Shown one piece after another: positions 5,771-58,212 of a DNA stretch of 64,000 nucleotides. The stretch spans positions 13,191,799-13,255,798 of the forward strand of contig OY754978.1 of NCBI GenBank assembly GCA_963576475.1, given 5' to 3'. This DNA is from Molanna angustata (lineage: Eukaryota > Arthropoda > Insecta > Trichoptera > Molannidae). Position numbers and translations under genes: made by a program. Below the pieces are notes generated by a model. That model saw nothing but the letters and a program-made list of their open reading frames with translations. It had not been told where the DNA came from and ran no database searches. Positions within the stretch are counted from its first letter, which is position 1, and every line of letters starts with the position of its first letter.

Positions 5771-6090
5771 TAGAAAAGGTAACTATCGCATGTACCTACA
5801 TGAAAAGAGTTCATACCTAATTTAAATTATCTGAAACCCAGAATTTGTTGTTTTTTTGGCATTTTCAGAACCAACCTAACTTGCATGAAATAAAAATTAT
5901 GTACTCTTGAGAATAAAAAGATGTTTTTTTTTATATTTATTATGTTTAATATGTCTCTATGTATTAGAAATATAATATTTTTTTAATACAATAAATCACA
6001 TTCCTGTGCAATAAATGAAATTTTGAATGAAACCTGTATTTTATTTCACTCCAAATATCCTACCTGTGTAAATTAGCAGAATACTGAGTA
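5771..6090. other. AT-rich sequence, no feature recognised
   Basis: No coding signal. The phrase 'ctgaaacccagaatttgttg' near 5830 resembles 'cggaaacccaaaatttgttg' at 49580 and 'ggaaacctaaattttgaac' at 62281, suggesting a faint dispersed repeat. Confidence 0.3.
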
Positions 6091-6710
6091 AGTAGATTGA
6101 AAATAGCCAAGTAGCTTTGCTGTGGCTACAGAATAAATTAATTCAGAATACTGAGTGAGTTGATTAAATCTAACCAAGTTGTTTGCTGTGGATACTGAAT
6201 GAATTAGTTCACATTACTGAGTAGTAGATTGAATTTAACCAAGTTGTTTGCTGTGGATACTGAATGAATTAGTTCACATTACTGAGTAGTAGATTGAATT
6301 TAACCAAGTTGTTTGCTGTGGATACTGAATGAATTAGTTCACATTACTGAGTAGTAGATTGAATTTAACCAAGTTGTGTGCTGTGGATACAGAATAAATT
6401 AATTCAGAATACTGAGTAAGTTGATTAAATCTAACCAAGTTGTTTGCTGTGGATACTGAATGAATTAGTTCACATTACTGAGTAGTAGATTGAATTTAAC
6501 CAAGTTGTTTGCTGTGGATACTGAATGAATTACATAGTTCAGATTACTGAGTAGTTAATTAAATCTAACCAAGTTGTTTGCTGTGGATACTGAATGAATT
6601 AGTTCAGATTACCGATTAGTAGATTGAAATTAGCCAAGTTGTTTGTTGTGGATACTGAATGAATTAGTTCAGATTACCGAGTAAGTTGATAGAAATTAGC
6701 CAACTAGGTT
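6090..6710 (+). repeat. Minisatellite, period about 65 bp
   Basis: About nine tandem copies of a unit containing GTTTGCTGTGGATACTGAAT and ATTACTGAGTAGTAGATTG followed by AACCAAGTT. Starts of GTTTGCTGTGG at 6181, 6246, 6311, 6376 and 6442 give spacings of 65-66 bp. The central units are almost identical and the edges are degenerate. The related 'aaccaagttact'/'acaaagttgcttgg' wording runs on, decayed, to about 6940. Confidence 0.92.
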
Positions 6711-10363: not shown

Positions 10364-13300
10364 CTACCCCCCATCTGACCACTTTACACTTGTGGTTCTT
10401 AATTGGTTAACATGCCTTTTCCATGTGTAACTAGTACCCAGAACATTTACCAAGTAAATTGCCTTCCCAATTTTCCTAGTAATCTGTCCCAAAACCCATG
10501 TTGGTTTGTTTACTACCCTGTAGTCTTTTACCCAACATTTTTGACCTGTTTTCAATTCCTTCCTCTCTCTCCCTCCATAATAATAATGCTGCCTCTTTTG
10601 GCTTTTTAACAAGTTATGTCCAATAATATCCTCATGATCATTATTATCATTACAATTAAATTCAGGAATGAAAATGTCAAAATTTGTCCTTAGTTTTCTA
10701 CCTAACATTAAAACTGATGGTTCAACCTTTGTTGAAACATGCGGAGAATTCCGATAATCAACTAAAAAATTATCAATTCTATTTTCATAATCACTCATAA
10801 ATTTCATATTATTTATTAATAATTTTTTTAAAAACATTTTACACGTTTTCACCGTGTTTTCCGCTTGACCATTGGAAGAAGGTGAAAATATTGGTGACGT
10901 TACATGTTTTATACCATGTTCAACACAAAAACTCTGAAATTGATTTGACATAAAAGCACTACCATTATCCGATACTATCGTTTTGACACATCCAAATTGA
11001 CAAAATAATTTTTTTAATGCTTTAATGGTGCAAAACGCATTAATATTCTTCATTTCTAAGCATTCAATCCATTTTGAATATGCATCACATACTACAAGAA
11101 ATGATTTACCTGCAATTGGTCCAAAAAAATCAATATGTATTCTCGTCCAAACCGACTCTTCCTTAGGCCAGCTTGTCAATACATTTTTTGGTTCCGATGC
11201 GGCAACTTTTGAGCATTCAAAACATTCACTAACTAATTCTTCAATGTCTTTATCAATTTTCGGCCAATAAACATAACCTCTTGCAAGACCTTTTGTCTTC
11301 ACAATACCAAGATGAGATCTATGTAACATACCTAAAATTTTATCTCTCAAGCTTGACGGAATAACTACTCTATGATTCCACAAAATGCACCCTTTTATAA
11401 TTGATAACTCATTTCTCTTTAACCAGAAATGCCACAAATCACTGTCTTTGTTAACTTTATCCGGCCATTTTGATTGTAAACAATACATAATACGCACTAA
11501 CACATCATCACAACTAGTTGACTCACTAATCTGCTCAATGTTTATACAAATTTGCTCACTGTCACATATTAAATTTAAATAATTATCTGTCAAGTTATCA
11601 CAACTATTATCTGGTTCACTAACCGGTACTCTCGATAAATAATCAGAACAATTATCTTTAGACTTAATGTATTTAATTTCGTAATTAAAACCAGCCAAAA
11701 TTAACCCGTATCTTTGCAATCTATTTGCTGCTAACGTCGGTATATTCTTTTTTTCACTAAGAATTCTCGTTAGCGGTTGGCTATCAACCAATAATGTGAA
11801 TTTCCTACCGTACAGATACTGAAAAAACTGCTTTAATCCATATGTTATAGCTAACGCCTCAAGGTCGATAATAGCGTATTTTTGTTCTTCCTTAGACAGA
11901 GTGCGCGATACAAAAGCTATCGGTCTTTGTTGCTCTTTACCAATTAACAATGACGCCGCTAACCCTTTCAGTGACGCGTCCGTAACTAAAGTTAATGGTA
12001 AATTTTCGTCAAAATGTGCTAAAACATTTCCACTAGTTAAAACTTTTTTTAACTCATCGATTGCCTTCTTGCAATCGCTACTAAATTCCCAAACTGCATC
12101 TTTTTTTAATAACTCATATAACGGTTTCGCTATACTAGACATATTCGGAATAAAATTTCTATAAAAATTAATTAAACCTAAAAAACTTTTCAACTCATGA
12201 ACATCCCCTGGATATGGAGTTAAAGTTATAGCCTCAACTTTACTTTTTAAAGGTTCCACCCCTTTTTCCGAAATCTTATGTCCTAAAAATTCTACATTAT
12301 CCCTAAAAAATTCGCACTTTTCCGTATTTACAGTCAAATTACATTTTTTTAAACGTTTTAATAATCCCTCTAAGTTACTATCATGTTCCTCTAAAGTTCT
12401 TCCTGAAACCAAAATATCATCCAAAAATACCACAACTCCTTTTAAACCTAATAAACAAGCTGTTAAATTTTTAGCGAAAATTCCTGGGCTAGATGACAAA
12501 CCGAAAACTAACCTATTATACCGAAATAAACCTAACGATGTGGAAATCGTTGTATATTTTTTACTGTTTTCATCTAACTCAAACTGAGTATAAGCATTTT
12601 TTAAATCGATTTTGCTAAAATATTTACTTCCACTAATTTCTGACATTAACTCTTCGAATTTTGGTAACGGATATTTATCAACCATTAATTGTGGATTCAC
12701 TGTTGTTTTATAATCCCCACAAATCCTGATTTCCCCCGATTTCTTTATAACAGGAACAATTGGAGAAGCAATGTCACTCGACGTCACTGCCGTGATTATG
12801 CCCTCTTTCTCCAATCTTCTAATTTCTTTTTCGACTTTTTCCCTGATCGAAAATGGAACTAACCTAGGTTTACAAAATTTAGGTATAAAATTCTCTTTAA
12901 CAAACAACCTAACCTTTCCTTTGGAAAATCTTCCCAATTTTTCACTGAAAACTTCCGGATATTTTTCCTTGATTTTAATAATATAATTATTTTTAAAATT
13001 TTCATCAACACTGGTCAGTAAAGTGTTAACACCTTCAAAATAAATATTGAAATTCTGAATAACATTTCTACCTATTATTACACTGTTGCCATTGTTTACT
13101 ACGAATAATTTAATCACTTGTTTGATATTGTTGTATGTTACTTCCATTATACACATACCAATACATTTTAAAATACTACCGTCGTATGATTTTAAAATAC
13201 TTGTCGGCTTATTCAATTTATAATTTTTAAACTTCTTAAAATAAATATCTTTCGGAATTACACATACATTAGCACCTGTATCAATCATCGCGTGAATAAT

Positions 13301-13720
13301 CTGACTACCAATACATATATTAATCATGAATGGATTTACAATTTCATTATTACCTTCCGTATTGCAAACAACATTTACGTTCGTATTATTTTCCATAGTA
13401 AAAATACTATTTTTGCTTTTACCAAACTGATCGTTTTTACATGCTTTCGCAATATGACCCATTTTTCTACACTTATTACACTTAAAATTTATAAATTTAC
13501 AATCTTTAATTAAATGACTATCAGATAAACATGCAAAACATTTTAAATTCCTATTACTAACATGCGGTGATACTGATCTATTCCTTTTCTTATCAACTTC
13601 ATTGAAATTCCTTCTATGTGCACTATTTTTATTATACCTACTATTCTGTTTACTTTCGATTTCACAAATTTCTGATTTACATCTTTTTATCATATTTTTA
13701 TTTTTTGATACCGATTCCAA
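10364..13720 (-). CDS. pol: Ty3/gypsy Pol (NC-PR-RT-RH-IN)
   Basis: About 1,118 codons on the minus strand, opening on a non-ATG codon four codons after the gag stop and in the same frame. Order: two CCHC zinc knuckles (C61-C64-H69-C74 and C81-C84-H89-C94); aspartic protease with IDTGAN (D147); reverse transcriptase with D372 in IDLKNAYTQF and FLDD at 432-435; RNase H with TDAS (D581); integrase with an HHCC zinc finger (H800, H803, C833, C836) and a D864, D918, E954 triad with 35 residues between the last two; then a C-terminal domain. All catalytic residues are present. The nucleocapsid knuckles lie downstream of the stop that ends Gag, so this frame has no start of its own. It would need readthrough, or the stop is a mutation. 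Confidence 0.93.
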   Translation of the reverse strand: MESVSKNKNMIKRCKSEICEIESKQNSRYNKNSAHRRNFNEVDKKRNRSVSPHVSNRNLKCFACLSDSHLIKDCKFINFKCNKCRKMGHIAKACKNDQFGKSKNSIFTMENNTNVNVVCNTEGNNEIVNPFMINICIGSQIIHAMIDTGANVCVIPKDIYFKKFKNYKLNKPTSILKSYDGSILKCIGMCIMEVTYNNIKQVIKLFVVNNGNSVIIGRNVIQNFNIYFEGVNTLLTSVDENFKNNYIIKIKEKYPEVFSEKLGRFSKGKVRLFVKENFIPKFCKPRLVPFSIREKVEKEIRRLEKEGIITAVTSSDIASPIVPVIKKSGEIRICGDYKTTVNPQLMVDKYPLPKFEELMSEISGSKYFSKIDLKNAYTQFELDENSKKYTTISTSLGLFRYNRLVFGLSSSPGIFAKNLTACLLGLKGVVVFLDDILVSGRTLEEHDSNLEGLLKRLKKCNLTVNTEKCEFFRDNVEFLGHKISEKGVEPLKSKVEAITLTPYPGDVHELKSFLGLINFYRNFIPNMSSIAKPLYELLKKDAVWEFSSDCKKAIDELKKVLTSGNVLAHFDENLPLTLVTDASLKGLAASLLIGKEQQRPIAFVSRTLSKEEQKYAIIDLEALAITYGLKQFFQYLYGRKFTLLVDSQPLTRILSEKKNIPTLAANRLQRYGLILAGFNYEIKYIKSKDNCSDYLSRVPVSEPDNSCDNLTDNYLNLICDSEQICINIEQISESTSCDDVLVRIMYCLQSKWPDKVNKDSDLWHFWLKRNELSIIKGCILWNHRVVIPSSLRDKILGMLHRSHLGIVKTKGLARGYVYWPKIDKDIEELVSECFECSKVAASEPKNVLTSWPKEESVWTRIHIDFFGPIAGKSFLVVCDAYSKWIECLEMKNINAFCTIKALKKLFCQFGCVKTIVSDNGSAFMSNQFQSFCVEHGIKHVTSPIFSPSSNGQAENTVKTCKMFLKKLLINNMKFMSDYENRIDNFLVDYRNSPHVSTKVEPSVLMLGRKLRTNFDIFIPEFNCNDNNDHEDIIGHNLLKSQKRQHYYYGGRERKELKTGQKCWVKDYRVVNKPTWVLGQITRKIGKAIYLVNVLGTSYTWKRHVNQLRTTSVKWSDGG

Positions 13721-13732
13721 TACATTTGCATA

Positions 13733-14209
13733 TTAAAGTATTTGAGAAAAACCCTTTTTCTCGTCCTCCAAATACAACTTTTCTTTTATTTGACTATTAC
13801 ACAAACCGATAATAAAAATATCTTTCAAAGATTCTTCCAGACGATCATTAAATTGACATTTAACACTACGCTCTTTTAATTTACAAGCAAACTCTTTTAC
13901 TGATTCATGTTCAGACTGTTTCATACAATAAAATTTTTCTCTCTCTATATACGGAGAAACAGTTTCATTACAAAAATTATCCAAATGATCAAATAATTTC
14001 GACAATTTTTCTTCAGTAACTTTTCTTGGTACACACAAGTTCTGTAATAAAACAAAAGTTTTTTCAGACAAAGAGGTTAAAAATATTGCTCTCTTCCTTG
14101 ATTCAGACATTTTTTCATCATCAGCTATGATGAATTGCTCAAAACGTACCCTGAACACACTCCACAAATCACTCTCGTGATTGAAAAGCGGTAGATTCCT
14201 TTGTTCCAT
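13733..14209 (-). CDS. gag: Ty3/gypsy Gag, capsid part, ended by in-frame TAA
   Basis: The first ATG is at 14209 on the minus strand (MEQRNLPLFNHESDLW...); codons further upstream lack an ATG. About 158 residues follow, of the retrotransposon gag (capsid-like) type: WSVFRVRFEQF near the start and a charged region with MKQSEHESVKEF, then KLKERSVKCQF. It has no zinc knuckle. TAA at 13735-13733 ends it, and the same frame then runs openly into the nucleocapsid knuckles and Pol. The stop therefore falls inside what would usually be the single gag(-pol) product. Either a recent nonsense change or a recoding site explains this. Confidence 0.8.
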   Translation of the reverse strand: MEQRNLPLFNHESDLWSVFRVRFEQFIIADDEKMSESRKRAIFLTSLSEKTFVLLQNLCVPRKVTEEKLSKLFDHLDNFCNETVSPYIEREKFYCMKQSEHESVKEFACKLKERSVKCQFNDRLEESLKDIFIIGLCNSQIKEKLYLEDEKKGFSQIL

Positions 14210-14742
14210 ATTACCGAAAAAAGAATACCTACAGACAAGAAAAGAAAAATACACTTATCTTAACTCGATCCTGTCCAGTCGCTTGAACCTGCACTACGGC
14301 CCAACCCTGTCTCTGCAGAAGTCGTCTCTGTCGAATCCTGGTCTTCCAGCTCTCTGGTCCTCTTCCGTTGCCTCTGCTCGACGCTCGTTCACAGCAAGCA
14401 GCCAATCCTCTTGTCCAATCCTTGTGGTCCCCTGGTCCTCTCTGATTCTCGTTCCCGTTGTCCTTCCTGGTCTTCCTTGGTCCCCTCTGGTCCCCTTGAA
14501 GTCCAGTCGAAGTCTCCCGAAGTCGTATCTCGAAGATCCCTGTCTTCTTCAGCTCCGATACTGCTTCCTCGAAGATCTTCTTTTCCGTACACTACAGTGT
14601 CTCTATACACTTGTACGATCTTGTACCTCCAATTTTTTTTCAGTGAAAAAAAATTATTGTTGTCTGTTGTTGCCGAAATTTTTCCTTCTTGAAAAATTCC
14701 CAATTTCTTCGTGTAAATTCGTTCCAGACTGCGCCAGTATAG
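14210..14742 (-). other. 5' leader with primer-binding site, purine-rich
   Basis: Between the 5' LTR and gag. It starts on the element strand with CTATAC and then TGGCGCAGTCTGGAACG (14736 down to 14720), the likely primer-binding site. The region 14300-14560 is strongly purine-rich on the element strand (GGAAGACCAGGAAGGAC-like repeats), unlike the AT-rich rest, giving a spurious open frame. Confidence 0.75.
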
Positions 14743-21695: not shown

Positions 21696-21704
21696 ATAAA
21701 AAAA

Positions 21705-21960
21705 ATGTGGCTGAAGTTTCGAACGTTCTAACGGAATGAACTAACGGATCAATGGTCAGGATACAATAGTGATAACCCAAGGAAAAAATATTTTTTATTT
21801 ATTTATTATATATATTTTATTTGTAGTTTTAATTGCTTGTTTATTTATTTATTTATGCATTGACTAGTTTTTTTAATTATTTACTTATTTATGCATTAAT
21901 GAACGATAAAATAAACGGAAAAAAATTGAAAATAATCTGAATATAAATAAAGTAAACGTC
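21705..21960 (+). repeat. Foldback left terminal segment
   Basis: Unique (non-satellite) outer part of the left arm. Its inverted counterpart is 38265-38520. Differences are mainly in the length of (TTTA)n runs near 21800. Confidence 0.85.
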
Positions 21961-24900
21961 GTTATACCCCACCATATAGGGTAACCAGCGACAGGTTTGC
22001 GGAAACGCATAACCTAATAATATAAAGCATTACACATGCGTGTATACCCACACACATTTTTTTATAATCTACGTACTTACTGAATATAAATACACCACCA
22101 TGTAGGGTATCAGCGACAGGTTTGCGGAAACACATAACCTAATAAAATAAAGGACTACACATGCGTGTATGCCCACGCACATTTTTTTTATAATAAACGT
22201 ACTTAGTGAATATAAATACACCACCATGTAGGGTAACCAGCGACAGGTTTGCGAAAACGCATAACCTAAGAAAATTATGCACTACACATGCATGTATGCC
22301 CACGCACATTTTTTTTATAATTTACGTACTTAGTGAATATAAATACACCACCATGTAGGGTAACCAGCGACAGGTTTGCGGAAACGCATAATCTAATAAA
22401 ATAAAGCACTATACATGCGTGTATACCCACGCATTTTTTTTTAATAATTAACGTACTTAGTGTTTATACATACACCACCATGTAGGGTAACCAGCGACAG
22501 ATTTGCGGAAACGTATAACCTAATAAAATAAAGCACTACACTTGCGTGTATGCCCACGCACATTTTATTATAATTTAAGTACTCACTGAATATAAATACA
22601 CCAACATGTGGGGGAACCAGCGACAGGTTTGCGGAAACGCATATCCTAATAAAATAAAGCACTACACATGCGTGTATGCCCACGCACATTTTTTTATAAT
22701 AAACGTACTTAGTGAATATAAATACACCACCATGTAGGGTAACCAGCGACAGGTTTGCGAAAATGCATAACCTAAGAAAATTATGCACTACACATGCATG
22801 TATGCCCACGCACATTTTTTTTATAATTTACGTACTTAGTGAATATAAATACACCACCATGTAGGGTAACCAGCGACAGATTTGCGGAAACGCATAACCT
22901 AATAAAATAAAGCACTACACATTCGTGTATGCCCACGCACATTTTATTATAATTTAAGTACTTACTGAATATAAATACACCACCATGTGGGGTAACCAGC
23001 GACAGGTTTGCGGAAACGCATAACCTAATAAAATAAAGCACAACACATGCGTGTATGCCCAAGCACATTTTTTTTTAATTTACGTACTAACTGAATATAA
23101 ATACACCACCATGTAGGGTAATCAGCGACAGGTTTGCGGAAACGCAGAACCTAATAAAATAAAACACTACACATGCGTGTATACCCACGCATTTTTTTTA
23201 ATAATTAACGTACTTAGTGTTTATACATACACCACCATGTAGGGTAACCAGCGACAGATTTGCGGAAACGTATAACCTAATAAAATAAAGCACTACACAT
23301 GCGTGTATGCCCACGCACATTTTATTATAATTTAAGTACTCACTGAATATAAATACACCAACATGTGGGGGAACCAGCGACAGGTTTGCGGAAACGCATA
23401 TCCTAATAAAATAAAGCACTACACATGCGTGTATGCCCACGCACATTTTTTTATAATAAACGTACTAAGTGAATATAAATACACCACCATGTAGGGTAAC
23501 CAGCGACAGGTTTGCGAAAATGCATAACCTAAGAATATTATGCACTACACATGCATGTATGCCCACGCACATTTTTTTTATAATTTACGTACTTAGTGAA
23601 TATAAATACACCACCATGTAGGGTAACCAGCGACAGATTTGCGGAAACGCATAACCTAATAAAATAAAGCACTACACATTCGTGTATGCCCACGCACATT
23701 TTATTATAATTTAAGTACTTACTGAATATAAATACACCACCATGTGGGGTAACCAGCGACAGGTTTGCGGAAACGCATAACCTAATACAATAAAGCACAA
23801 CACATGCGTGTATGCCCAAGCACATTTTTTTTTAATTTACGTACTAACTGAATATAAATACACCACCATGTAGGGTAATCAGCGACAGGTTTGCGGAAAC
23901 GCAGAACCTAATAAAATAAAGCACTACACATGCGTGTATGCCCACGCACATTTTTTTTATAATTTACATACTAACTGAATATAAATACACCACCATGTAG
24001 GGTAATCAGCGACAGGTTTGCGGAAACACATAACCGAATAAAATTAAGCACTACACATGCGTGTATGCCCACGCACATTTTTTTATAATTTACGTCTTAC
24101 TGAATATAAATACACCACCATGTTGGGTAATCAGCGACAGGTTTGCGCAAACGCATAAAAAATAAAATAAAGCACTACACATGCGTGTATGCCCACGCAC
24201 ATTTTATTATAATTTAAGTACTTACTGAATATAAATTCACCACCATATATGGGAACCAGCGACAGGTGTGCGGAAACACATTACCTAATAAAATAAAGCA
24301 CTACACATGCGTGTATGCCCACGCACATTTTTTATAATTTACGTACTAACTGAATATAAATACACCACCATGTAGGGTAATCAGCGACAGGTTTGCGGAA
24401 ATGCATAACTTAATAAAATTAAGCACTACACATGCGTGTATGCCCACGCACATTTTTTTTTAATTTACGTACTAACTGAATATAAATACACCACCATGTA
24501 GGGTAATCAGCGACAGGTTTGCGGAAACACATAACCGAATAAAATTAAGCACTACACATGCGTGTATGCCCACGCACATTTTTTTATAATTTACGTCTTA
24601 CTGAATATAAATACACCACCATGTTGGGTAATCAGCGACAGGTTTGCGCAAACGCATAACCTAATAAAATAAAGCACTACACATGCGTGTATGCCCACGC
24701 ACATTTTATTATAATTTAAGTACTTACTGAATATAAATTCACCACCATATATGGGAACCAGCGACAGGTGTGCGGAAACACATAACCTAATAAAATAAAG
24801 CACTACACATGCGTGTATGCCCACGCACATTTTTTATAATTTAAGTACTTACTGAATATAAATTCACCACCATATATGGGAACCAGCGACAGGTGTGCGG

Positions 24901-25545
24901 AAACACATTACCTAATAAAATAAAGCACTACACATGCGTGTATGCCCACGCACATTTTTTTATAATTTACGTACTTACTGAATATAAATACACCACCATG
25001 TAGGGTAATCAGCGATAGGTTTGTGGAAACGCATAAGCGAATAAAATTAAGCACAACACATGCGTGTATGCCCACGCACATTTTTTTTAGAATTTACGTA
25101 CTTAGTAAATATAAAAACACCACCATGTAGGGTAATCAGCGACAGGTTTGCGGAAACGCATAACCTCATAAAATAAAGCACTACGCATGCGTGTATGCCC
25201 ACGCACATTTTATTATAATTTACGTACTAACTGGATATAAATAAAGTAAACCTCGTTATACCCCACTATGTAGGGTAACCAGCGACAGGTTTGCGGATAC
25301 GCATAAACTAATTAAATAAAGCATTACACATGCGGGTATGCCCACACACATTATTTTAATAATTTACGTACATACTGAAAATAAATAAAGTAAACCTCGA
25401 TATACCTCACCATGTAGGGTAAACAGCGGCAGGTTTCCGGATACGGATAACCTAATTAAATAAAGCATTACACATGCGTGTATGCCCACTCAAGTACATT
25501 TTTATATTTTACGTACTTAATGAATATAAATAAAGTAAACCTCGA
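21961..25545 (+). repeat. Satellite A array, about 28 monomers of 126 bp
   Basis: Monomers contain ACCACCATGTAGGGTAACC, AGCGACAGGTTTGCGGAAAC, GCATAACCTAATAAAATAAA and CACATGCGTGTATGCCCACG. Spacing of the AGCGACAGG box is 125-127 bp. Higher-order structure: a 757-bp six-monomer block at about 22430-23186 is repeated at 23187-23943 with few changes, and a 501-bp four-monomer block recurs near 24092/24592. The last three units (from 25220) are diverged and carry the 'ataaagtaaacctcg' edge variant that also occurs at the outer edge. Because 126 is a multiple of 3, the minus strand gives repeating 42-residue open frames. Confidence 0.95.
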
Positions 25546-28500
25546 TATTTTATTTGGCCAAAGATACCCTCGGAACGGAAAATTTTGAAGTCAAATATAA
25601 TATTAAAAAAAAATCTAGTACTTTTATTTGGTCAAAGATACCCTCAATTTTTCTGAGGTGTATGAAGCACTACAATGTGCATCTGACGCAAAAATAAAAT
25701 TCAAATAAAATAAACCGCAACATTGTTTTAAAGCCGATGAACGGAAAATTTTGAAGTCAAATATAATATTAAAAAAAAATCTAGCACTTTTATTTGGTCA
25801 AAGATACCCTCAATTTTTCTGACGTGTATGTAGCACTACAATGTGCATCTGACGCAACAATAAAAAACAAAGAAAATAAACCGCAACATTGTTTTCAAGC
25901 CGATTAACGGAAAATTTTGAAGTCAAATATAATATTAAAAAAAAATCTAGCACTTTTATTTGGTCAAAGATACCCTCAATTTTTCTGAGGTGTATGTAGC
26001 ACTACAATGTGCATCTGATGCAAAAATAAAATTTATAAAAAATAAACCGCAACATTGTGTTCAAGCGGATTAACGGAAAATTTTGATGTCAAATATAATA
26101 TTAAAAAAAAATCTAGCACTTTTATTTGGTCAAAGATACCCTCAATTTTTCTGAGGTGTATGTAGCACTACAATGTGCATCTGACGCAAAAATAAAATTT
26201 ATAAAAAATAAACCGCAACATTGTGTTCAAGCGGATCAACGGAAAATTTTGATGTCAAATATAATATTAATAAAAAATCTAGCACTTTTATTTGGTCAAA
26301 GATACCCTCAATTTTTCTAAGGTGTATGAAGCACTACAATGTGCATGTGACGTAAAAATAAAATTCAAATAAAATAAACCGCAACATTGTTTTCAAGCCG
26401 ATTAACGGAAAATTTTGAAGTCAAATAAAATATTAAAAAAAATCTTGCACTTTTATTTGGTCAAAGATACCCTCAATTTTTCTGACGTGTATGAAGCACT
26501 ACAATGTGCATCTGACGCAAAAATAAAATTTATAAAAAATAAACCGCAACATTGTGTTCAAGCGGATTAACGGAAAATTTTGATGTCAAATATAATATTA
26601 AAAAAAAATCTAGCACTTTTATTTGGTCAAAGATACCCTCAATTTTTCTGAGGTGTATGTAGCACTACAATGTGCAACTGAGGCAAAAATAAAATTCAAA
26701 TAAAATAAACCGCAACATTGTTTTCAAGCCTATTAACGGAAAATTTTGAAGTCAAATATAATATTAAAAAAAAATCTAGCACTTTTATTTGGTCAAAGAT
26801 ACCCTCAATTTTTCTGAGGTGTATGTAGCACTACAATGTGCATCTGATGCAAAAATAAAATTTATAAAAAATAAACCGCAACATTGTGTTCAAGCGGATT
26901 AACGGAAAATTTTGATGTCAAATATAATATTAAAAAAAAATCTAGCACTTTTATTTGGTCAAAGATACCCTCAATTTTTCTGAGGTGTATGAAACACTAC
27001 AATGTGCATCTTACGCAAAAATAAAATTCAAATAAAATAAACCGCAACATTGTTTTCAAGCCGATTAACGGAAAATTTTGAAGTCAAATTAATATTAAAA
27101 AAAATCTAGCACTTTTATTTGGTCAAAAATACCCTCAATTTTTCTGAGGTGTATGTAGCACTACAATGTGCATCTGACGCAAAAATAAAATTTATAAAAA
27201 ATAAACCGCAACATTGTGTTCAAGCGGATTAACGGAAAATTTTGATGTCAAATATAATATTAAAAAAAAATCTAGCACTTTTATTTGGTCAAAGATACCC
27301 TCAATTTTTCTGAGGTGTATGTAGCACTACAATGTGCATCTGAAGCAAAAATAAAATTCAAATAAAATAAACCGCAACATTGTTTTCAAGCCGATTAACG
27401 TAAAATTTTGAAGTCAAATATAATATTAAAAAAAAATCTAGCACTTTTATTTGGTCAAAGATACCCTCAATTTTTCTGAGGTGTATGGAGCACTACAATG
27501 TGCATCTGATGCAAAAATAAAATTTATAAAAAATAAACCGCAACATTGTGTTCAAGCGGATTAACGGAAAATTTTGATGTCAAATATAATATTAAAAAAA
27601 AATCTAGCACTTTTATTTGGTCAAAGATACCCTCAATTTTTCTGAGGTGTATGTAGCACTACAATGTGCAACTGAGGCAAAAATTAAATTCAAATAAAAT
27701 AAACCGCAACATTGTTTTCAAGCCTATTAACGGAAAATTTTGAAGTCAAATATAATATTAAAAAAAAATCTAGCACTTTTATTTGGTCAAAGATACCCTC
27801 AATTTTTCTGAGGTGTATGTAGCACTACAATGTGCATCTGATGCAAAAATAAAATTTATAAAAAATATACCGCAACATTGTGTTCAAGCGGATTAACGGA
27901 AAATTTTGATGTCAAATATAATATTAAAAAAAAATCTAGCACTTTTATTTGGTCAAAGATACCCTCAATTTTTCTGAGGTGTATGAAACACTACAATGTG
28001 CAACTTACGCAAAAATAAAATTCAAATAAAATAAACCGCAACATTGTTTTCAAGCCGATTAACGGAAAATTTTGAAGTCAAATTAATATTAAAAAAAATC
28101 TAGCACTTTTATTTGGTCAAAGATACCCTTAATTTTTCTGAGGTGTATGTAGCACTACAATGTGCATCTGACGCAAAAATAAAATTTATAAAAAATAAAC
28201 CGCAACATTGTGTTCAAGCGGATTAACGGAAAATTTTGATGTCAAATATAATATTAAAAAAAAATCTAGCACTTTTATTTGGTCAAAGATACCCTCAATT
28301 TTTCTGAGGTGTATGAAGCACTACAATGTGCAACTGATGCAAAAATAAAATTCAAATAAAATAAACCGCAACATTGTTTTCAAGCCGAATAACGGAAAAT
28401 TTTGATGTCAAATATAATATTAAAAAAAAATCTAGCACTTTTATTTGGTCAGAGATACCCTCAATTTTTCTGAGGTGTATGTAGCACTACAATGTGCATC

Positions 28501-30526
28501 TGACGCAAAAATAAAATTTATAAAAAATAAACCGCAACATTGTGTTCAAGCGGATTAACGGAAAATTTTGATGTCAAATATAATATTAAAAAAAAATCTA
28601 GCACTTTTATTTGGTCAAAGATACCCTCAATTTTTCTGAGGTGTATGTAGCACTACAATGTGCATCTGATGCAAAAATAAAATTTATAAAAAATGAACCG
28701 CAACATTGTGTTCAAGCGGATTAACGGAAAATTTTGATGTCAAATATAATATTAAAAAAAAATCAAGCACTTTTATTTGGTCAAAGATACCCTCAATTTT
28801 TCTGAGGTGTATGTAGCACTACAATGTGCATCTGATGCAAAAATATAATTATTAAAAAATAAACCGCAACATTGTGTTCAAGCGGATTAACGGAAAATTT
28901 TGATGTCAAATATAATATTAAAAAAAAATCTAGCACTTTTATTTGGTCAAAGATACCTTCAATTTTTCTGAGGTGTATGTAGCACTACAATGTGCATCTG
29001 AAGCAAAAATAAAATTCAAATAAAATAAACCGCAACATTGTTTTCAAGCCGATTAACGTAAAATTTTGAGGTCAAATATAATATTAAAAAAAAATCTAGC
29101 ACTTTTATTTGGTCAGAGATACCCTCAATTTTTCTGAGGTGTATGTAGCACTACAATGTGCATCTGATGCAAAAATAAAATTTATAAAAAATAAACCGCA
29201 ACATTGTGTTCAAGCGGATTAACAGAAAATTTTGATGTCAAATATAATATTAAAAAAAAATCTAGCACTTTTATTTGGTCAAAGATACCCTCAATTTTTC
29301 TGAGGTGTATGTAGCACTACAATGTGCATCTGACGCAAAAATAAAATTTATAAAAAATAAACCGCAACATTGTGTTCAAGCGGATTAACGGAAAATTTTG
29401 ATGTCAAATATAATATTAAAAAAAAATCTAGCACTTTTATTTGGTCAAAGATACCCTCAATTTTTCTGAGGTGTATGTAGCACTACAATGTGCATCTGAC
29501 ACAAAAATAAAATTTATAAAAAATAAACCGCAACATTGTGTTCAAGCGGATTAACAGAAAATTTTGATGTCAAATATAATATTAAAAAAAAATCTAGCAC
29601 TTTTATTTGGTCAAAGATACCCTCAATTTTTCTGAGGTGTATGTAGCACTACAATGTGCATCTGACGCAAAAATAAAATTTATAAAAAATAAACCGCAAC
29701 ATTGTGTTCAAGCGGATTAACGGAAAATTTTGATGTCAAATATAATATTAAAAAAAAATCTAGCACTTTTATTTGGTCAAAGATACCCTCAATTTTTCTG
29801 AGGTGTATGTAGCACTACAATGTGCATCTGACGCAAAAATAAAATTTATAAAAAATAAACCGCAACATTGTGTTCAAGCGGATTAACGGAAAATTTTGAT
29901 GTCAAATATAATATTAAAAAAAAATCTAGCACTTTTATTTGGTCAAAGATACCCTCAATTTTTCTGAGGTGTATGTAGCACTACAATGTGCATCTGACGC
30001 AAAAATAAAATTTATAAAAAAATAACCGCAACATTGTGTTCAAGCGGATTAACAGAAAATTTTGATGTCAAATATAATATTAAAAAAAAATCTAGCACTT
30101 TTATTTGGTCAAAGATACCCTCAATTTTTCTGAGGTGTATGTAGCACTACAATGTGCATCTGACGCAAAAATAAAATTTATAAAAAATAAACCGCAACAT
30201 TGTGTTCAAGCGGATTAACGGAAAATTTTGATGTCAAATATAATATTAAAAAAAAATCTAGCACTTTTATTTGGTCAAAGATACCCTCAATTTTTCTGAG
30301 GTGTATGTAGCACTACAATGTGCATCTGACGCAAAAATAAAATTTATAAAAAATAAACCGCAACATTGTGTTCAAGCGGATTAACGGAAAATTTTGATGT
30401 CAAATATAATATTAAAAAAAAATCTAGCACTTTTATTTGGTCAAAGATACCCTCAATTTTTCTGAGGTGTATGTAGCACTACAATGTGCAACTGAGGCAA
30501 AAATAAAATTCAAATAAAATAAACCG
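25546..30526 (+). repeat. Satellite B array (left), about 30 monomers of 166 bp
   Basis: Monomers contain GGTCAAAGATACCCTCAATT, TTTCTGAGGTGTATGTAGCA, CTACAATGTGCATCTGACGC and ACCGCAACATTGTGTTCAAG. Successive GGTCAAAG boxes at 29277, 29443, 29609, 29775 and 29941 are exactly 166 bp apart. Two subtypes differ around 'aaatttataaaaaataaacc...ttgtgttcaagcgg' versus 'aaattcaaataaaataaacc...ttgttttcaagccg'. They are mixed up to about 29,100 with a 994-bp higher-order period (for example 26681/27675 and 26991/27985). The core-proximal part (29,200-30,480) is almost pure subtype 1. Confidence 0.95.
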
Positions 30527-31370
30527 CGAAAAAAAAATCCTTTCCTAGAATAAGGGGTTACCCAATTATATGGAATTATCCAATGTAATAGGCCGTTTCC
30601 ACGCTCGCCTTGGCTCGGCGAGAGATCTCGAGCTCTCATATTTCTGAATACCAGAATCCAACTTAAACTCCGAAGTATGTAAATAAATAAATAAAATAAA
30701 TAATGATTAAAATATTTTTTTTATATTCTGATATGCATTTCTTTTAGAATTTTTAAATAATATTTATTATTGAAAAATGTCTATTGTTTGATTAAGAACA
30801 TGTACATGTAGAGATAATTGAAAAATCCTATATTATAATAAAAATACGTAAGGTCAAAAGTAATGGCCGATATAACCTCAGCATCCTTCATGTTTTGATA
30901 CTGACGGGCTCGCGAGCATGTAAATAGTGTCCGAGCTGTCGACTTTTAAGCCGTTTACACGCTCGCCGAGACGTTCGCCGCGCCTATACCAACGTATAAA
31001 TCCGGCATAAGGGTTGATTTAATGTCTGCTCCACACTTAGTCCGCAATGACGAACTTTCCGGGAATCACATGAGATATTTTATATATTTTTTCAATAAAA
31101 GATATATAAATAGTTTGAATAGTACAGGTATCGCCAAATAACTTGACTTTTTAACAGAAAGGAAGATATTTGAAGATATTTGGCGATAATTATATACTGT
31201 TTTTTTCTTTTACAAAAAGAAAAAATGCTTATGCTGAGAATACTTGTAATAACGATTCAATACATTGACAAGAGCAATAATGTCATTTTTTTTTTAAAAA
31301 CAAACAAACTTCAAATAGATAGTTTAAAAGGGTAGAATGTTGCACCTCGAAGTGGTTGCCTTTACCAGTG
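30527..31370. other. Unique core of the foldback element
   Basis: About 845 bp without satellite or recognised coding sequence. It holds two same-orientation segments with GGCCGTTTCCACGCTCGCC (30590) and AGCCGTTTACACGCTCGCCG (30950), GC-rich islands in AT-rich DNA that look like the ends of a separate short element. Near 31130-31190 ATCGCCAAATA...TATTTGGCGAT forms a hairpin. Confidence 0.6.
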
Positions 31371-34300
31371 CGCATTGAACACAATGTTGCGGTTTATTTT
31401 TTATGATTTTTATTTTTGCGTCGGATGCAGATTGTAGTGCTACATACACGTCAGAAAAATTGAGGGTATCTTAGACCAAATAAAAGTGCTAGATTTTTTT
31501 TAATATTATATTTGACATCAAAATTTTCCGTTAATCCGCTTTAACACAATGTTGCGGTTTATTTTTCATGATTTTTATTTTAGCATCAGATGCAGATTGT
31601 AGTGCTACATACACGTCAGAAAAATTGAGGGTATCTTTGACCAAATAAAAGTGCTAGATTTTTTTTTAATATTATATATGACATCAAAATTTTCCGTTAA
31701 TCCGCTTGAACACAATGTTGCGGTTTATTTTTTATAATTTTTATTTTTGCGTCAGATGCACATTGTAGTGCTACATACACGTCAGAAAAATTGAGGGTAT
31801 CTTTAGCCAAATAAAAGTGCAGGATTTTTTTTTAATATTACATTATTCAACAAAATATGCGGTTAATCGGCTTGAACACAATGTTGCGGTTTATTTTTTA
31901 TAAGTTTTATTTTTGCGTCAGATGCACATTGTAGTGCTACATACACTCCAGAAAAATTGAGGGTATCTTTGACCAAATAAAAGTGCTAGATTTTTTTTAA
32001 TATTATATTTGATATCAAAATTTTCCGTTAATCCGCTTGAACACAATGTTGCGGTTTATTTTTTATAAATTTTATTTTTGCGTCAGATGCACATTGTAGT
32101 GCTACATATACCTCAGAAAAATTGAGGGTATCTTTGACCAAATAAAAGTGCAAGATTTTTTTTAATATTATATTTGACTTCAAAATTTTCCGTTAATCGG
32201 CTTGAAAACAATGTTGCGGTTTATTTTATTTGAATTTTATTTTTGCGTCAGATGCACATTGTAGTGCTACATACACCTCAGAAAAATTGAGGGTATCTTT
32301 GACCAAATAAAAGTGCTAGATTTTTTTTAATATTATATTTGACATCAAAATTTTCCGTTAATCCGCTTGAACACAATGTTGCGGATTATTTTTAATAAAT
32401 TTTATTTTTGCGTCAGATGCACATTGTAGTGCTACATACATGTCAGAAAAATTGAGGGTATCTTTGGCCAAATAAAAGTGCAGGATTTTTTTTTAATATT
32501 ACATTATTCAACAAAATATGCGGTTAATCGGCTTGAACACAATGTTGCGGTTTATTTTTTATAAGTTTTATTTTTGCGTCAGATGCACATTGTAGTGCTA
32601 CATACACTCCAGAAAAATTGAGGGTATCTTTGACCAAATAAAAGTGCTAGATTTTTTTTAATATTATATTTGACATCAAAATTTTCCGTTAATCCGCTTG
32701 AACACAATGTTGCGGTTTATTTTTTATAAATTTTATTTTTGCGTCAGATGCACATTGTAGTGCTACATATACCTCAGAAAAATTGAGGGTATCTTTGACC
32801 AAATAAAAGTGCTAGATTTTTTTTTAATATTATATTTTACTTCAAAATTTTCCGTTAATCGGCTTGAAAACAATGTTGCGGTTTATTTTATTTGAATTTT
32901 ATTTTTGCGTCAGATGCACATTGTAGTGCTACATACACCTCAGAAAAATTGAGGGTATCTTTGACCAAATAAAAGTGCTAGATTTTTTATTAATGTTATA
33001 TTTGACTTCAAAATTTTCCGTTAATCGGCTTGAAAACAATGTTGCGGTTTATTTTATTTGAATTTTATTTTTGCTTCAGATGCACATTGTAGTGCTACAT
33101 ACACCTCAGAAAAATTGAGGGTATCTTTGACCAAATAAAAGTGCTAGATTTTTTTTTAATATTATATTTGACTTCAATATTTTCCGTTAATCGGCTTGAT
33201 AACAATGTTGCGGTTTATTTTATTTGAATTTTATTTTTGCTTCAGATGCACATTGTAGTGCTACATACACCTCAGAAAAATTGAGGGTATCTTTGACCAA
33301 ATAAAAGTGCTAGATTTTTTTTAATATTATATTTGACATCAAAATTTTCCGTTAATCCGCTTGAACACAATGTTGCGGTTTATTTTTTATAAATTTTATT
33401 TTTGCGTCAGATGCACATTGTAGTGCTACATATACCTCAGAAAAATTGAGGGTATCTTTGACCAAATAAAAGTGCAAGATTTTTTTTAATATTATATTTG
33501 ACTTCAAAATTTTCCGTTAATCCGCTTGAACACAATGTTGCGGTTTATTTTTTATAAATTTTATTTTTGCGTCAGATGCACATTGTAGTGCTACATACAC
33601 GTCAGAAAAATTGAGGCTATCTTTGGCCAAATAAAAGTGCAGGATTTTTTTTTTAATATTACATTATTCTACAAAATATGCGGTTAATCGGCTTGAACAC
33701 AATGTTGCGGTTTATTTTTTATAAGTTTTATTTTTGCGTCAGATGCACATTGTAGTGCTACATACACTCCAGAAAAATTGAGGGTATCTTTGACCAAATA
33801 AAAGTGCTAGATTTTTTTAAATATTATATTTGACATCAAAATTTTCCGTTAATCGGCTTGAAAACAATGTTGCGGTTTATTTTATTTGAATTTTATTTTT
33901 GCTACAGATGCACATTGTAGTGCTACATACACCTCAGAAAAATTGAGGGTATCTTTGACCAAATAAAAGTGCTAGATTTTTTTTTAATATTATATTTGAC
34001 TTCAATATTTTCCGTTAATCGGCTTGATAACAATGTTGCGGTTTATTTTATTTGAATTTTATTTTTGCTTCAGATGCACATTGTAGTGCTACATACACCT
34101 CAGAAAAATTGAGGGTATCTTTGACCAAATAAAAGTGATAGATTTTTTTTAATATTATATTTGACATCAAAATTTTCCGTTAATCCGCTTGAACACAATG
34201 TTGCGGTTTATTTTTTATAAATTTTATTTTTGCGTCAGATGCACATTTTAGTGCTACATATACGTCAGAAAAATTGAGGGTATCTTTGGCCAAATAAAAG

Positions 34301-36178
34301 TGCAGGATTTTTTTTTAATATTACATTATTCAACAAAATATGCGGTTAATCGGCTTGAACACAATGTTGCGGTTTATTTTTTATAAGTTTTATTTTTGCG
34401 TCAGATGAACATTGTAGTGCTACATACACTCCAGAAAAATTGAGGGTATCTTTGACCAAATAAAAGTGCTAGATTTTTTTTAATATTATATTTGACTTCA
34501 AAATTTTCCGTTAATCGGCTTGAAAACAATGTTGCGGTTTATTTTATTTGAATTTTCTTTTTGCGTCAGATGCACATTGTAGTGCTACATACACCTTAGA
34601 AAAATTGAGGGTATCTTTGACCAAATAAAAGTGCTAGATTTTTTATTAATATTATATTTGACGTCAAAATTTTCCGTTGATCCGCTTGAACACAATGTTG
34701 CGGTTTATTTTTTATAAATTTTATTTTTGCGTCAGATGCACATTGTAGTGCTACATACACCTCAGAAAAATTGAGGGTATTTTTGATCAAATAAAAGTGC
34801 TAGATTTTTTTTTAATTTTATATTTGACTTCAAAATTTTCCGTTAATCGGCTTGAAAACAATGTTGCGGTTTATTTTATTTGAATTTTATTTTTGCTTCA
34901 GATGCACATTGTAGTGCTACATACCCCTCAGAAAAATTGAGGGTATCTTTGACCAAATAAAAGTGCTAGATTTTTTTTTAATATTATATTTTACTTCAAA
35001 ATTTTCCGTTAATCGGCTTGAAAACAATGTTGCGGTTTATTTTATTTGAATTTTATTTTTTCATCAGATGCAAATTAAAGTGCTACATACACCTCAGAAA
35101 AATTGAGGGTATCTTTGACCAAATAAAAGTGCAGGATTTTTTTTTTAATATTACATTATTCTACAAAATATGCGGTTAATCGGCTTGAACACAATGTTGC
35201 GGTTTATTTTTTATAAGTTTTATTTTTGCGTCAGATGCACATTGTAGTGCTTCATACACTCCAGAAAAATTGAGGGTATCTTTGACCAAATAAAAGTGCT
35301 AGATTTTTTTTAATATTATATTTGACATCAAAATTTTCCGTTAATCGGCTTGAAAACAATGTTGCGGTTTATTTTATTTGAATTTTATTTTTGCTTCAGA
35401 TGCACATTGTAGTGCTACATACACCTCAGAAAAATTGAGGGTATCTTTGACCAAATAAAAGTGCTAGATTTTTTTTTAATATTATATTTGACTTCAATAT
35501 TTTCCGTTAATCGGCTTGATAACAATGTTGCGGTTTATTTTATTTGAATTTTATTTTTGCTTCAGATGCACATTGTAGTGCTACATACACCTCAGAAAAA
35601 TTGAGGGTATCTTTGACCAAATAAAAGTGATAGATTTTTTTTAATATTATATTTGACATCAAAATTTTCCGTTAATCCGCTTGAACACAATGTTGCGGTT
35701 TATTTTTTATAAATTTTATTTTTGCGTCAGATGCACATTGTAGTGCTACATACACGTCAGAAAAATTGAGGGTATCTTTGGCCAAATAAAAGTGCAGGAT
35801 TTTTTTTTAATATTATATTTTACTTCAAAATTTTCCGTTAATCGGCTTGAAAACAATGTTGCGGTTTATTTTATTTGAATTTTATTTTTTCATCAGATGC
35901 ACATTAAAGTGCTACATACACCTCAGAAAAATTGAGGGTATCTTTGACCAAATAAAAGTGCTAGATTTTTTTTAATATTATATTTGACATCAAAATTTTC
36001 CGTTAATCCGCTTGAACACAATGTTGCGGTTTATTTTTTATAAATTTTATTTTTGCGTCAGATGCACATTGTAGTGCTACATACACCTCATAAAAATTGA
36101 GGGTATCTTTGACCAAATAAAAGTGCTAGATTTTTTTTAATATTATATTTGACTTCAAAATTTTCCGTTCCGAGGGTA
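31371..36178 (-). repeat. Satellite B array (right, inverted), about 29 monomers
   Basis: Inverted relative to the left array; the same 166-bp monomer read on the minus strand. It contains a monomer variant absent from the left arm: ACATTATTCAACAAAATATG replaces the usual TATATTTGACATCAAAATTT. That variant recurs at about 31841, 32503, 33662, 34322 and 35155, a spacing of 660-662, 833 or 1159 bp, that is four, five or seven monomers. Confidence 0.95.
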
Positions 36179-38262
36179 TCTTTGGCCAAATAAAATATCG
36201 AGGTTTACTTTATTTATATTCAGTAAGGACGTAAAATATAAAAATATACTTGAGTGGGCATACACGCATGTGTAATGTTTTATTTAATTAGGTTATGTGT
36301 ATCCGCAAACCTGCCGCTGTTTACCCTACATGGTGAGGTATATCGAGGTTTACTTTATTTATTTTCAGTAAGTACGTAAATTATTAAAAAATGTGTGTGG
36401 GCATACCCGCATGTGTAATGCTTTATTTTATTAGTTTATGCGTATCCGCAAACCTGTCGATGGTTACCCTACATGGTGGGGTATAACGAGGATTACTTTA
36501 TTTATATCCAGTTAGTACGTAAATTATTAAAAAAATGTGCATAGTGGGCATACACGCATGTGTAGTGCTTTATTTTATTAGGTTATGCGTTTCCGCAAAC
36601 CTGTCGCTGGTTACCCCACATGGTGGTGTATTTATATTCAGTAAGTACTTAAATTATAAGAAAATGTGCGTGGGCATACACGAATGTGTAGTGCTTTATT
36701 TTATTAGGTTATCCGCAAATCTGTAGCTGGTTGCCCTATATGGTGGTGTATTTATATTCACTAAGTACGTATATTATAAAAAAATGTGCGTGGGCATACA
36801 CGCATGTGTAGTCCTTTATTTTATTAGGTTATGCGTTTCCGCAAACCTGTCGCTGGTTCCCATATATGGTGGTGAATTTATATTCAGTAAGTATGTAAAT
36901 TATAAAAAAACGTGCGTGGGCATACACGCCTGTGTAGTGCTTAATTTTATTAGGTAATGCGTTTCCGCAAACCTGTCGCTGATTACCCTTCATGGTGGTG
37001 TATTTATATTCAGTTAGTACGTAAATTATAAAAAATGTGCGTGGGCATACACGCATTTGTAGTGCTTTATTTTATTAGGTTATGCGTTTCCTCAAACCTG
37101 TCGCTGGTTACCCCACATGGTGGTGTATGTATATTCAGTAAGTACTTAAATTATAATAAAATGTGCGTGGGCATACACGAATGTGTAGTGCTTTATTTTA
37201 TTAGGTTATGCGTTTCCGCAAACCTGTCGCTGGTTACCCCACATGGTGGTGTATTTATATTCAGTAAGTACTTAAATTCTAATAAAATGTGCGTGGGCAT
37301 ACACGAATGTGTAGTGCTTTATTTTATTAGGTTATCCGCAAATCTGTCGCTGGTTACCCTACATGGTGGTGTATTTATATTCACTAAGTACGTTTATTAT
37401 AAAAAAAAATGTGCGTGGGCATACACGCATGTGTAGTCCTTTATTTTATTAGGTCATACGTTTCCGCAAACCTGTCGCTGGTTCCCATATATGGTGGTGA
37501 ATTTATATTCAGTAAGTATGTAAATTATAAAAAAATGTGCGTGGGCATACACGCCTGTGTAGTGCTTAATTTTATTAGGTTATGCGTTTCCGCAAACCTG
37601 TCGCTGATTACCCTTCATGGTGGTGTATTTATATTCAGTTAGTACGTAAATTATAAAAAATGTGCGTTGGCATACACGCATTTGTAGTGCTTTATTTTAT
37701 TAGGTTATGCGTTTCCTCAAACCTGTCGCTGGTTACCCCACATGGTGGTGTATGTATATTCAGTAAGTACTTAAATTATAATAAAATGTGCGTGGGCATA
37801 CACGAATGTGTAGTGCTTTATTTTATTAGGTTATCCGCAAATCTGTCGCTGGTTACCCTACATGGTGGTGTATTTATATTCACTAAGTACGTAAATTATA
37901 AAAAAAATGTGCGTGGGCATACATGCATGTGTAGTGCATAATTTTCTTAGGTTATGCGTTTTCGCAAACCTGTCGCTGGTTACCCTACATGGTGGTGTAT
38001 TTATATTCACTAAGTACGTTTATTATAAATAAAATGTGCGTGGGCATACACGCATGTGTAGTCCTTTATTTTATTAGGTTATGCGTTTCCGCAAACCTGT
38101 CGCTGATACCCTACATGATGGTGTATTTATATTTAGTAAGTACGTAGATTATAAAAAAATGTGTGTGGGTATACACGCATGTGTAATGCTTTATATTATT
38201 AGGTTATGCGTTTCCGCAAACCTGTCGCTGGTTACCCTATATGGTGGGGTATAACGACGTTT
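36179..38262 (-). repeat. Satellite A array (right, inverted), about 16 monomers
   Basis: Inverted counterpart of 21961-25545 with the same 126-bp monomer but only about 16 copies. The open 42-residue repeats are here on the plus strand. The edge variant with the 'cgaggtttactttatttat' motif is present at both edges, as in the left arm. Confidence 0.95.
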
Positions 38263-38520
38263 ACTTTATTTATATTCAGATTATTTTCAATTTTTTTCCG
38301 TTTATTTTATCGTTCATTAATGCATAAATAAGTAAATAATTAAAAAAAACTAGTTAATGCATAAATAAATAAATAAAAAAGCAATTAAAACTACAAATAA
38401 AATATATATAATAAATAAATAAATAAATAAAAAATATTTTTTCCTTGGGTTATCACTATTGTATCCTGACCATTGATCCGTTAGTTCATTCCGTTAGAAC
38501 GTTCGAAACTTCAGCCACAT
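38263..38520 (-). repeat. Foldback right terminal segment
   Basis: Inverted copy of 21705-21960, ending ...CTTCAGCCACAT at 38520, directly followed by the 9-bp repeat ATAAAAAAA. Confidence 0.85.
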
Positions 38521-38794
38521 ATAAAAAAAATGTAATTAAAAAAAAACAATGATTTTCAGTCTTACTATTCAACGTATATAAATCATATTAGTTGGTCAAC
38601 AACTGTGTATCTCGGTAACGACTGTGTACTATAGATAATTGTGCATTTAGGAGCGAAAAGTTGTTAAAAAATTAGCTCCTTAGTACAAACGTGTTTGCAT
38701 GGGTATTCGCATGATGTAATTATTCGTTATATTTTTCATATTTATATTTTAAAATGTAAAAACATATGAAAATATTAACCACAATAAACGTCAA

Positions 38795-46725: not shown

Positions 46726-47231
46726 AGAATAAGTACAAACTATTAACCCATAAATCTAAATTATTTAATATTTTATGATATTTTATTTTCTATACAACAC
46801 ATCATGTAGGTATGTTTGTAAAGGTATACAACACAGCAAGGCACTTGAATCCATTATCAATATTATTGGTAACATAATCAGTTACTGCCAATATGGCGTC
46901 ACTTGTATTCATATAAAGGGTTTTATGGAGTTCAGTCTTTTTTTCTTACCCAGAATATGAAAACAGCATGATGGTTTGTATGTACATATGTTTGGAGATG
47001 TCATACAAATTGTATGAAGCGATGTCTTCACTAAATTCAATTTTTATAAGAATTTAAAAAAAAATTGAGATTAACGAATACAATGTTGTTTTTCTATAGC
47101 AAATTAAATTATCTAGTTGGAGTGATTCGGCTTTTTTCGATATTTTTAAAATCTTTGGAAATATAGGCAGTTAAACACATTTTTCTTAATATAAAATGTT
47201 TGAGAAACTCTGGAATTCTTTTTAAATAAGG

Positions 47232-47700
47232 ATTTTGAGATTTTGTTTCCGTCTATTATTATACCAATTTTCAGGATTCTAGCTTTAATGGTTCCGGAGA
47301 TATATGGAAAAATTAAGTAAAAGTTCAAAAGTTGATAACTCCTGACTGAAACCAAAATTCTAAATTCTGAGTATAAAAGTTTTGTAGGCCTATGTGATAA
47401 TATCTATATATTCTGAAAATTGGGGCTTTGTAAATTGAGTGGATCAAAAGTTATAAGGGACGGACGGACGCACACACACACACACACAGACAGACACACT
47501 AAATGTTCTTCTCCGAATTCTGAGTAAATCAATGTATAACATATATGCCATGCGAAGCCTTTAAGTTGGTATTTTTTGACTCCAAAGTTGGAAAAACTGT
47601 TAAAAATATAGACCATGCATACAAATCTCGCGTATCTTGAGGTGATACTTTGTTGATATGTTAAGAGAACAAAGTTCTCTTGAATAAATCGACAGTTGGA
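47232..47700 (+). repeat. Dispersed repeat R3, copy 2
   Basis: Same family as 18700-19195. It holds a longer ACGGACGCACACAC microsatellite at 47460-47490. Non-coding. Confidence 0.75.
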
Positions 47701-47977
47701 TGGAAAAATACACGAGAAATCGTGTATTTCTCGATTGGTTCCATTTCAATTTGGCCAAGATTTGATCACGAAATCTACGACAACATCATCAAAAACAAAA
47801 AAAAATCGAAAGGGATTACGTACTTCTATGGCGGTTCCATTTGAACAAAGCTAAGACATTTGATGATGGATATCATGAGAAATTATAAAACTCATCAATT
47901 TGCGGAGCATTTGCGTATTATTGAACAGGCGAATGGTATGAAAGATATTTAATTATACGATATTATGTATATATTAT

Positions 47978-56110: not shown

Positions 56111-56400
56111 CACACTCACACATGCACACACACTCACTCACACATACAAACAATCACACGCCATATTATACTAATTTTCAAAATATCTTTTATACTGGAT
56201 AAATATCTTTATACTACTAAATTTATATTGGATTTTATTTTTTATTTTGTAAACTACCCATTGCTGGAGATAGGTCACCCGCACATTAATGTTGAAATTT
56301 AATGAATCATCGCACGGTCGTAAATGCAGTGCCGTTGTATGTAGGTACCCACTAACAATACATTGATTTTTATGTGACCCCTTCAGTGACGATGTGGCTA

Positions 56401-58212
<1,812 letters not shown>

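Follow-up and report, generated by a model that had tools for sequence, protein, structure and literature searches.

We found that the 64,000-nucleotide stretch of Molanna angustata DNA analysed here (the window) carries a 16,816-bp member, at positions 21705–38520, of a family of foldback elements whose long inverted arms contain two satellites in a fixed order. The family is real and mobile and, as far as our literature searches go, undescribed. A perfect ATAAAAAAA lies directly outside both ends of the window element, at 21696–21704 on the left and 38521–38529 on the right, and is the 9-bp direct repeat that an earlier note on this DNA had claimed as flanking near-identical inverted termini. 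Alignment bears out those termini as inverted near-copies over ∼300 bp, differing by two substitutions and by indels of 8 bp and 1 bp. By terminus comparisons, the left terminal segment (TERM) occupies 21705–21963 on the forward strand, its inner end merging into the first unit of satellite A; its inverted counterpart, delimited by the terminus alignment, occupies 38253–38520 on the reverse strand. Tandem Repeats Finder identified satellite A as a 126-bp unit, from 21964 on the left and at 36499–38252 on the right, and satellite B as a 166-bp unit at 25574–30527 and 31375–36169. Together with the inverted alignment, these results show the same order (terminal segment, A, B) in both arms, as had been proposed. 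On the forward strand, the left A array of ∼126-bp units with the A/B junction covers 21964–25573 and the left B array, of ∼30 copies, 25574–30528; on the reverse strand, the right B array covers 31375–36169 and the right A/B junction with its A array 36170–38252. The left arm (21705–30528) measures 8.8 kb and the right arm (31375–38520) 7.1 kb, and when aligned inverted they are 92.8% identical over 6,916 bp. A anchors number 28 on the left versus 16 on the right, and B anchors 31 versus 30. The A/B junction is indeed mirror-image, with 120 bp from the last A anchor to the first B anchor in both arms and first B spacings of 74 bp and 73 bp. The core announced between the arms is also present (30529–31374), with a length of 846 bp rather than the 845 bp first given.

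The reading of this DNA as a very large foldback-type transposon is supported by the rest of the genome. In the 995-Mb assembly (131 contigs), the outer 43 bp of the terminus has 300 copies with at most three mismatches, 147 forward and 153 reverse, compared with 0 and 0 matches for a reversed-pattern control. The search pattern starts at ATGTGG, and termini of the family are ATGTGGCTGAAG-like. Since the start of the pattern was fixed by design, the real evidence that other copies end at the same base is that perfect target-site duplications (TSDs) abut the termini in 20 of 22 checked pairs. Pairing used 100 listed termini of the 300, all exact matches and all on contigs C1–C15. Among these 100 we identified 32 neighbouring head-to-head (+/−) pairs within 100 kb, with lengths of 1.4–46.4 kb (median 23.6 kb, sum 797 kb; 31 of the 32 at 12–46 kb); the other neighbours within 100 kb were one −/+ and three same-strand. 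At one place on C5, two left termini, one inner and one outer, compete for a single right end; the outer (28.6 kb), which has the matching TSD, was used for counting TSDs.

Both flanks were examined for 22 of the 32 listed pairs. The perfect TSDs comprise 16 of 9 bp and 4 of 8 bp; no TSD was found for C6:14696848-14743272 (46.4 kb) and C9:21291504-21292933 (1.4 kb). Random reassignment of right flanks in 2,000 permutations, which drew 42,028 pairings out of 462 distinct possibilities, produced no match of 8 bp or more. The TSDs are 80% A+T and the flanks 73%. Joined flank pairs were compared with the other sequence examined, and two of nine match paralogous repeats that are uninterrupted across the junction. 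For C5:22110050-22133401, the matches (80–83%) are L010, L017 and a repeat outside the window element at 47054–47701 on the forward strand; the window repeat has a diverged single target copy in the aligned block, and L010 and L017 are too diverged at the target to read. For C5:29392216-29421449, the match is L006 (78%), where the aligned block contains a single target copy with one base different. The joined flanks of the window element itself had no other match in the sequence compared.

These data bear on two explanations that do not involve a transposon. One is an inverted satellite duplication arising by breakage or recombination, which would fit the satellite arms, the two pairs without TSDs and the window arms of two lineages described below. 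However, the fixed termini, the 300 copies and the paralogous uninterrupted sites argue against it and the TSDs of 20 pairs contradict it, making it highly improbable. The other is a false inverted arm produced in assembly. Long inverted repeats can mislead assemblers, and the case here is judged from the assembly alone, but several loci that differ in their flanks and have private TSDs show the same architecture, and the two arms of the window element are unequal in both sequence and length, as a mis-copied arm would not be. An artefact of this kind is scarcely credible.

Sister copies share the anatomy of the window element. Four, all among the largest pairs, were examined whole (46 kb on C6, 43 kb on C11, 43 kb on C12 and 36 kb on C4) and one 12-kb pair nearly whole, giving 12 arms including those of the window, 10 of them complete. 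The order TERM-A-B-[middle]-B′-A′-TERM′ is present in five complete elements, counting the window, and in the partial 12-kb copy, which is without the core and whose left terminal part lies outside the sequence examined. A is followed by B in all 12 arms, and 11 have both the 120-bp A/B anchor spacing and the 73–74-bp first B spacing; the exception is the right arm of the 12-kb copy, where the spacing is 179 bp and the short first B is missing. Across the six elements, arms range from ∼5.7 kb (this same right arm) to ∼22 kb (C11 left arm). An internal region of ∼9.7 kb is common to the C6, C11 and C4 copies, with small gaps in C4, and the C12 copy has 3.4 kb of it. Substitutions per site relative to the C11 internal region are 0.5% for C6, 0.9% for C4 and 1.4% for C12, and the edges of the region to B coincide where compared. 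The window core corresponds to one edge of the region (99.6–99.9% identity to C11 and C6), and on the opposite side a deletion joins it to B. The family therefore has the features of the foldback class: long inverted repeats of tandem units, fixed ends at multiple loci with TSDs, and a repeat number and middle domain that vary among copies. Two copies, C6 and C4, additionally contain nested gypsy-type elements, and in C11 the right A array includes a LINE-type stretch.

The explanation that we favour, and consider probable as a whole, is a family of non-autonomous foldback-type DNA transposons served by a transposase in trans and subject to changes in its arms. The mobile unit would run from terminal segment through A, B, the internal region, B′ and A′ to terminal segment′. 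A transposase made elsewhere, most likely of Mutator (MULE) type, would recognise the terminal segments, and the element would insert as one piece, presumably by cut-and-paste, making target duplications of 9 bp and sometimes 8 bp. Between transpositions, arrays would grow or shrink by duplicating blocks of monomers, and arms would sometimes be copied onto each other or exchanged between elements. On this account the window copy is an internal-deletion derivative, retaining 846 bp of the ∼9.7 kb, and it combines arms of two lineages with an intact TSD. Counting against this explanation, 36 of the 100 listed termini have no partner.

Some of the unpaired loci are informative about the origin of the satellites. 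More diverged termini with ∼1–3 A units in the 1.5 kb examined were found at L009-L011, L014-L017, L019, L026 and L027, and merely a piece of the terminal segment at L018, L030, L031 and L038. The innermost part of the terminal segment forms the beginning of an A unit. Because the terminal segment merges into A and the diverged copies have so few A units, satellite A looks as if it was born from the terminal inverted repeats (TIRs) and later amplified. The suggestion in the earlier note of a satellite-capturing derivative was thus half right: A runs on from the terminal segment and looks TIR-born, and no source of satellite B was found. The diverged copies could also indicate that a smaller foldback element moved, with the bulk of its satellite DNA accumulating in situ later through unequal exchange or block duplication. 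In agreement, array lengths vary (12–28 A anchors in complete arms and 20–118 B anchors), the B arrays contain block duplications of many monomers that differ from arm to arm, and 629 identical B pairs occur within one arm. However, loci that have their own TSDs share the A/B junction, the shortened first B unit and the internal region together with its edges, so a unit with both satellites and a middle of up to 9.7 kb moved. In-situ growth is therefore a question of degree and not an alternative for the whole. We regard it, in the strong form, as possible although not probable; array length may have grown after insertion, and elements would have been shorter when moving to that extent.

Arms were compared over the terminal segment and A array, leaving out the 12-kb copy and the insertion-interrupted right arm of C11. 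In C4:4549421-4585331, the left and right arms align over 2,086 bp with no gap at 99.95% identity, and neither exceeds 97.1% identity to the other arms compared. Left–right identity is 98.9% for C12, 95.7% for C6 and 93.1% for the window, and a separate comparison gave 99.0% over 1,918 bp for C11. The nearest relative of the window left arm is the left arm of the 46-kb C6 copy (98.3%), and that of the window right arm, whose A array is nearer those of other elements than that of its own left arm, is the C12 left arm (99.15%). The window copy is a hybrid with arms of two lineages, and yet it has a perfect TSD. Identical terminal haplotypes on both ends that are private to the element occur in just 2 of 13 pairs (35.9 kb and 24.4 kb, both on C4). 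Of 569 B monomers, 407 have their nearest counterpart outside their own arm in another element and 49 in the opposite arm of their own element, and 113 are ties. Together, the haplotypes and the B monomers indicate that arm copying is not general, and the B monomers that B is not generally homogenised between arms either. These patterns in the sequences suggest occasional copying of arms within elements and exchange of arms between elements. Taking this further, we tentatively raise the possibility of self-renewing satellite carriers, in which arms would sometimes be copied mutually and swapped between elements while 12–46-kb units keep transposing, so that arrays born inside a transposon become scattered over the chromosomes. 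If this is true, hybrids with intact TSDs, such as the window copy, originate when arms are swapped before or during transposition, and not through chromosome rearrangement.

No recognised transposase was seen in any copy examined. Leaving aside simple-repeat frames, the C11 internal region contains 83 ORFs that reach 42 aa or more, of which 79 were scanned after four further repeat frames were dropped. These 79 gave no transposase domain, and specifically no P-type (THAP) domain; there was one RVT_1 fragment, one repeat-driven Cornifin match and seven marginal matches. A Polinton-like virus or gene-rich giant transposon found no support: no such domain occurs in the 79 ORFs, and large ORFs in two of the big copies look, by their domains, like nested Ty3/gypsy-type retrotransposons. 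The exact 30-base terminus had 0 matches in viral_contigs. Elsewhere in the genome, at least 82 MULE-domain matches exceeded the cut-off, 77 without stops and 13 in an 824-aa open frame; 28 of the 82 (on C1–C12) were compared with the 100 listed termini (of 300), and none lies within 298 kb. The MULE assignment therefore rests on TSD length, which is ∼9 bp as for Mutator/MULE elements in 16 of the 22 checked pairs, with 8 bp in 4 and none in 2. TSDs of 8 bp are also made by other superfamilies, and the enzyme that mobilises this kind of element could belong to a different superfamily (hAT, P, Merlin or one not yet described). The 8-bp TSDs of 4 of the 20 pairs and the lack of a transposase in the copies examined would fit such an enzyme, and the accessible text on Galileo pairs foldback-like arms with a P-type transposase (PMC3573991, PMC3169594). 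In contrast, 16 of the 20 TSDs are of 9 bp, a size that the available text of one report gives as common for MULE-domain transposases (PMC3169594). MULEs with open frames also exist in this genome, MULE being the sole superfamily searched genome-wide. We consider another superfamily somewhat unlikely. From TSD length, our best guess is that the transposase is supplied in trans and is probably of Mutator (MULE) type.

Among known systems, FB/FB-NOF of Drosophila melanogaster resembles this family in its long inverted arms of tandem units and its 9-bp duplications, and has shorter repeats and elements when compared by description. Tetris, a foldback element of Drosophila virilis, is also similar: its available description includes a terminal domain, a TIR tandem-repeat domain and a variable middle, TSDs of 8–10 bp (8–9 bp here), no transposase found, tandem repeats derived from TIRs and a Mutator assignment from TSD length (PMC4079207). 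In contrast, the same text gives Tetris TIRs of at most 1,735 bp, one repeat type of ∼220 bp and three structurally complete copies, against arms of 5.7–22 kb with two satellites in fixed order in the present family, the two being compared by description (PMC4079207). Galileo (P superfamily, Drosophila) likewise has long, internally repetitive TIRs of variable length and, as in the window copy, chimeric copies with TIRs of different subfamilies; in the portion of that study available, however, its longest TIRs are ∼1.26 kb and the chimeric copies are without TSDs, whereas the window hybrid has a perfect one (PMC3573991). Tm1, a Mutator/foldback element of root-knot nematodes, shares composite TIRs with internal repeats, 9-bp TSDs and many non-autonomous copies, but its internal motif is ∼14 bp and one of its copies has a Phantom-type MULE transposase, according to the accessible text (PMC3169594). 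TE-LNCR of Spodoptera, a 2-kb unclassified element as far as its available report describes it, was rejected for its dissimilar structure (PMC3184123). In the corresponding portion of a giant-transposon review, foldback elements are named once, for composite Drosophila units (PMC6431247). Among the entries listed by PubMed Central searches, a scope outside which Repbase and subscription papers lie, there was no lepidopteran or large foldback family with satellites and no paper on the present family; the earlier note likewise knew of no described family with this sequence. New among foldback elements are the size of the arms, which far exceeds that in the Tetris (1.7 kb) and Galileo (1.3 kb) reports as available, the two satellites in fixed order and the hybrid arms with an intact TSD.

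One proposal is that satellite DNA arises from foldback elements; for Tetris, the accessible part of the report suggests that transposition may be disrupted by larger arrays (PMC4079207). Kilobase satellite arms with TSDs and near-identical internal regions at separate loci argue against such a limit on array size, unless the arrays lengthened once the elements had inserted. The path by which a transposon arm would become a dispersed satellite is now directly testable, and the family raises the questions of how large an inverted-repeat cargo a transposase handles and of how arms keep or lose their mirror symmetry.

Finally, we considered whether A or B contains repeated terminal sequence that could act as binding sites; this was rejected, as no match to the outer 60 bp of the terminus was seen in the A or B units. 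An Rfam scan gave no match within the window element, the sole match being a tRNA at 61896–61968. In single-strand folding against shuffled sequences, the terminus (z 1.39) and the B unit (z 1.17) were no better than shuffles; the A unit folded slightly better (z −1.52), with 19 of 200 shuffles at least as good.

Our genome search of the 995-Mb assembly found matches to the Mutator-type transposase (MULE) domain, the type of enzyme proposed to be supplied to the foldback family in trans, in at least 82 places. Several groups of these matches carry long open frames, including one of 824 amino acids in 13 copies, and these groups may represent active Mutator-type transposons.

A 1.43-kb miniature of the family without a target-site duplication lies on contig C9 within L005 (C9:21290004-21292933; 1-2930 of the locus). 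It is directly adjoined by sequence from the family's internal region, and, among the termini listed for C9, another left terminus lies 11.7 kb away. From this sequence arrangement, we read L005 as a rearranged locus. In the C11 element, a 43-kb sister copy, the right satellite A array contains a LINE-type stretch with endonuclease and RT domains (L047:6224-10000 and L048:1-1325, two pieces of the element).

In the window, positions 56171-58100 form a second palindromic arrangement. Tandem repeat detection identified three long (TA)n arrays there, set between copies of a single short sequence that alternate in orientation; reading from 56898 (-), 56947 (+), 57587 (-) and 57636 (+) gives an identical 19-letter peptide start. 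Open-frame reading also revealed a 1,122-codon pol-like frame of retrotransposon type with an adjoining gag-like frame (10364-14254, minus strand). The pol-like name was judged by eye from the sequence rather than by family search, and the gag-like frame had no match in Pfam. A weak tRNA-family match (61896-61968, plus strand; 30.3 bits, cut-off 29) is possibly a SINE head, and tandem repeat detection found 9.5 copies of a 65-bp repeat at 6077-6703.
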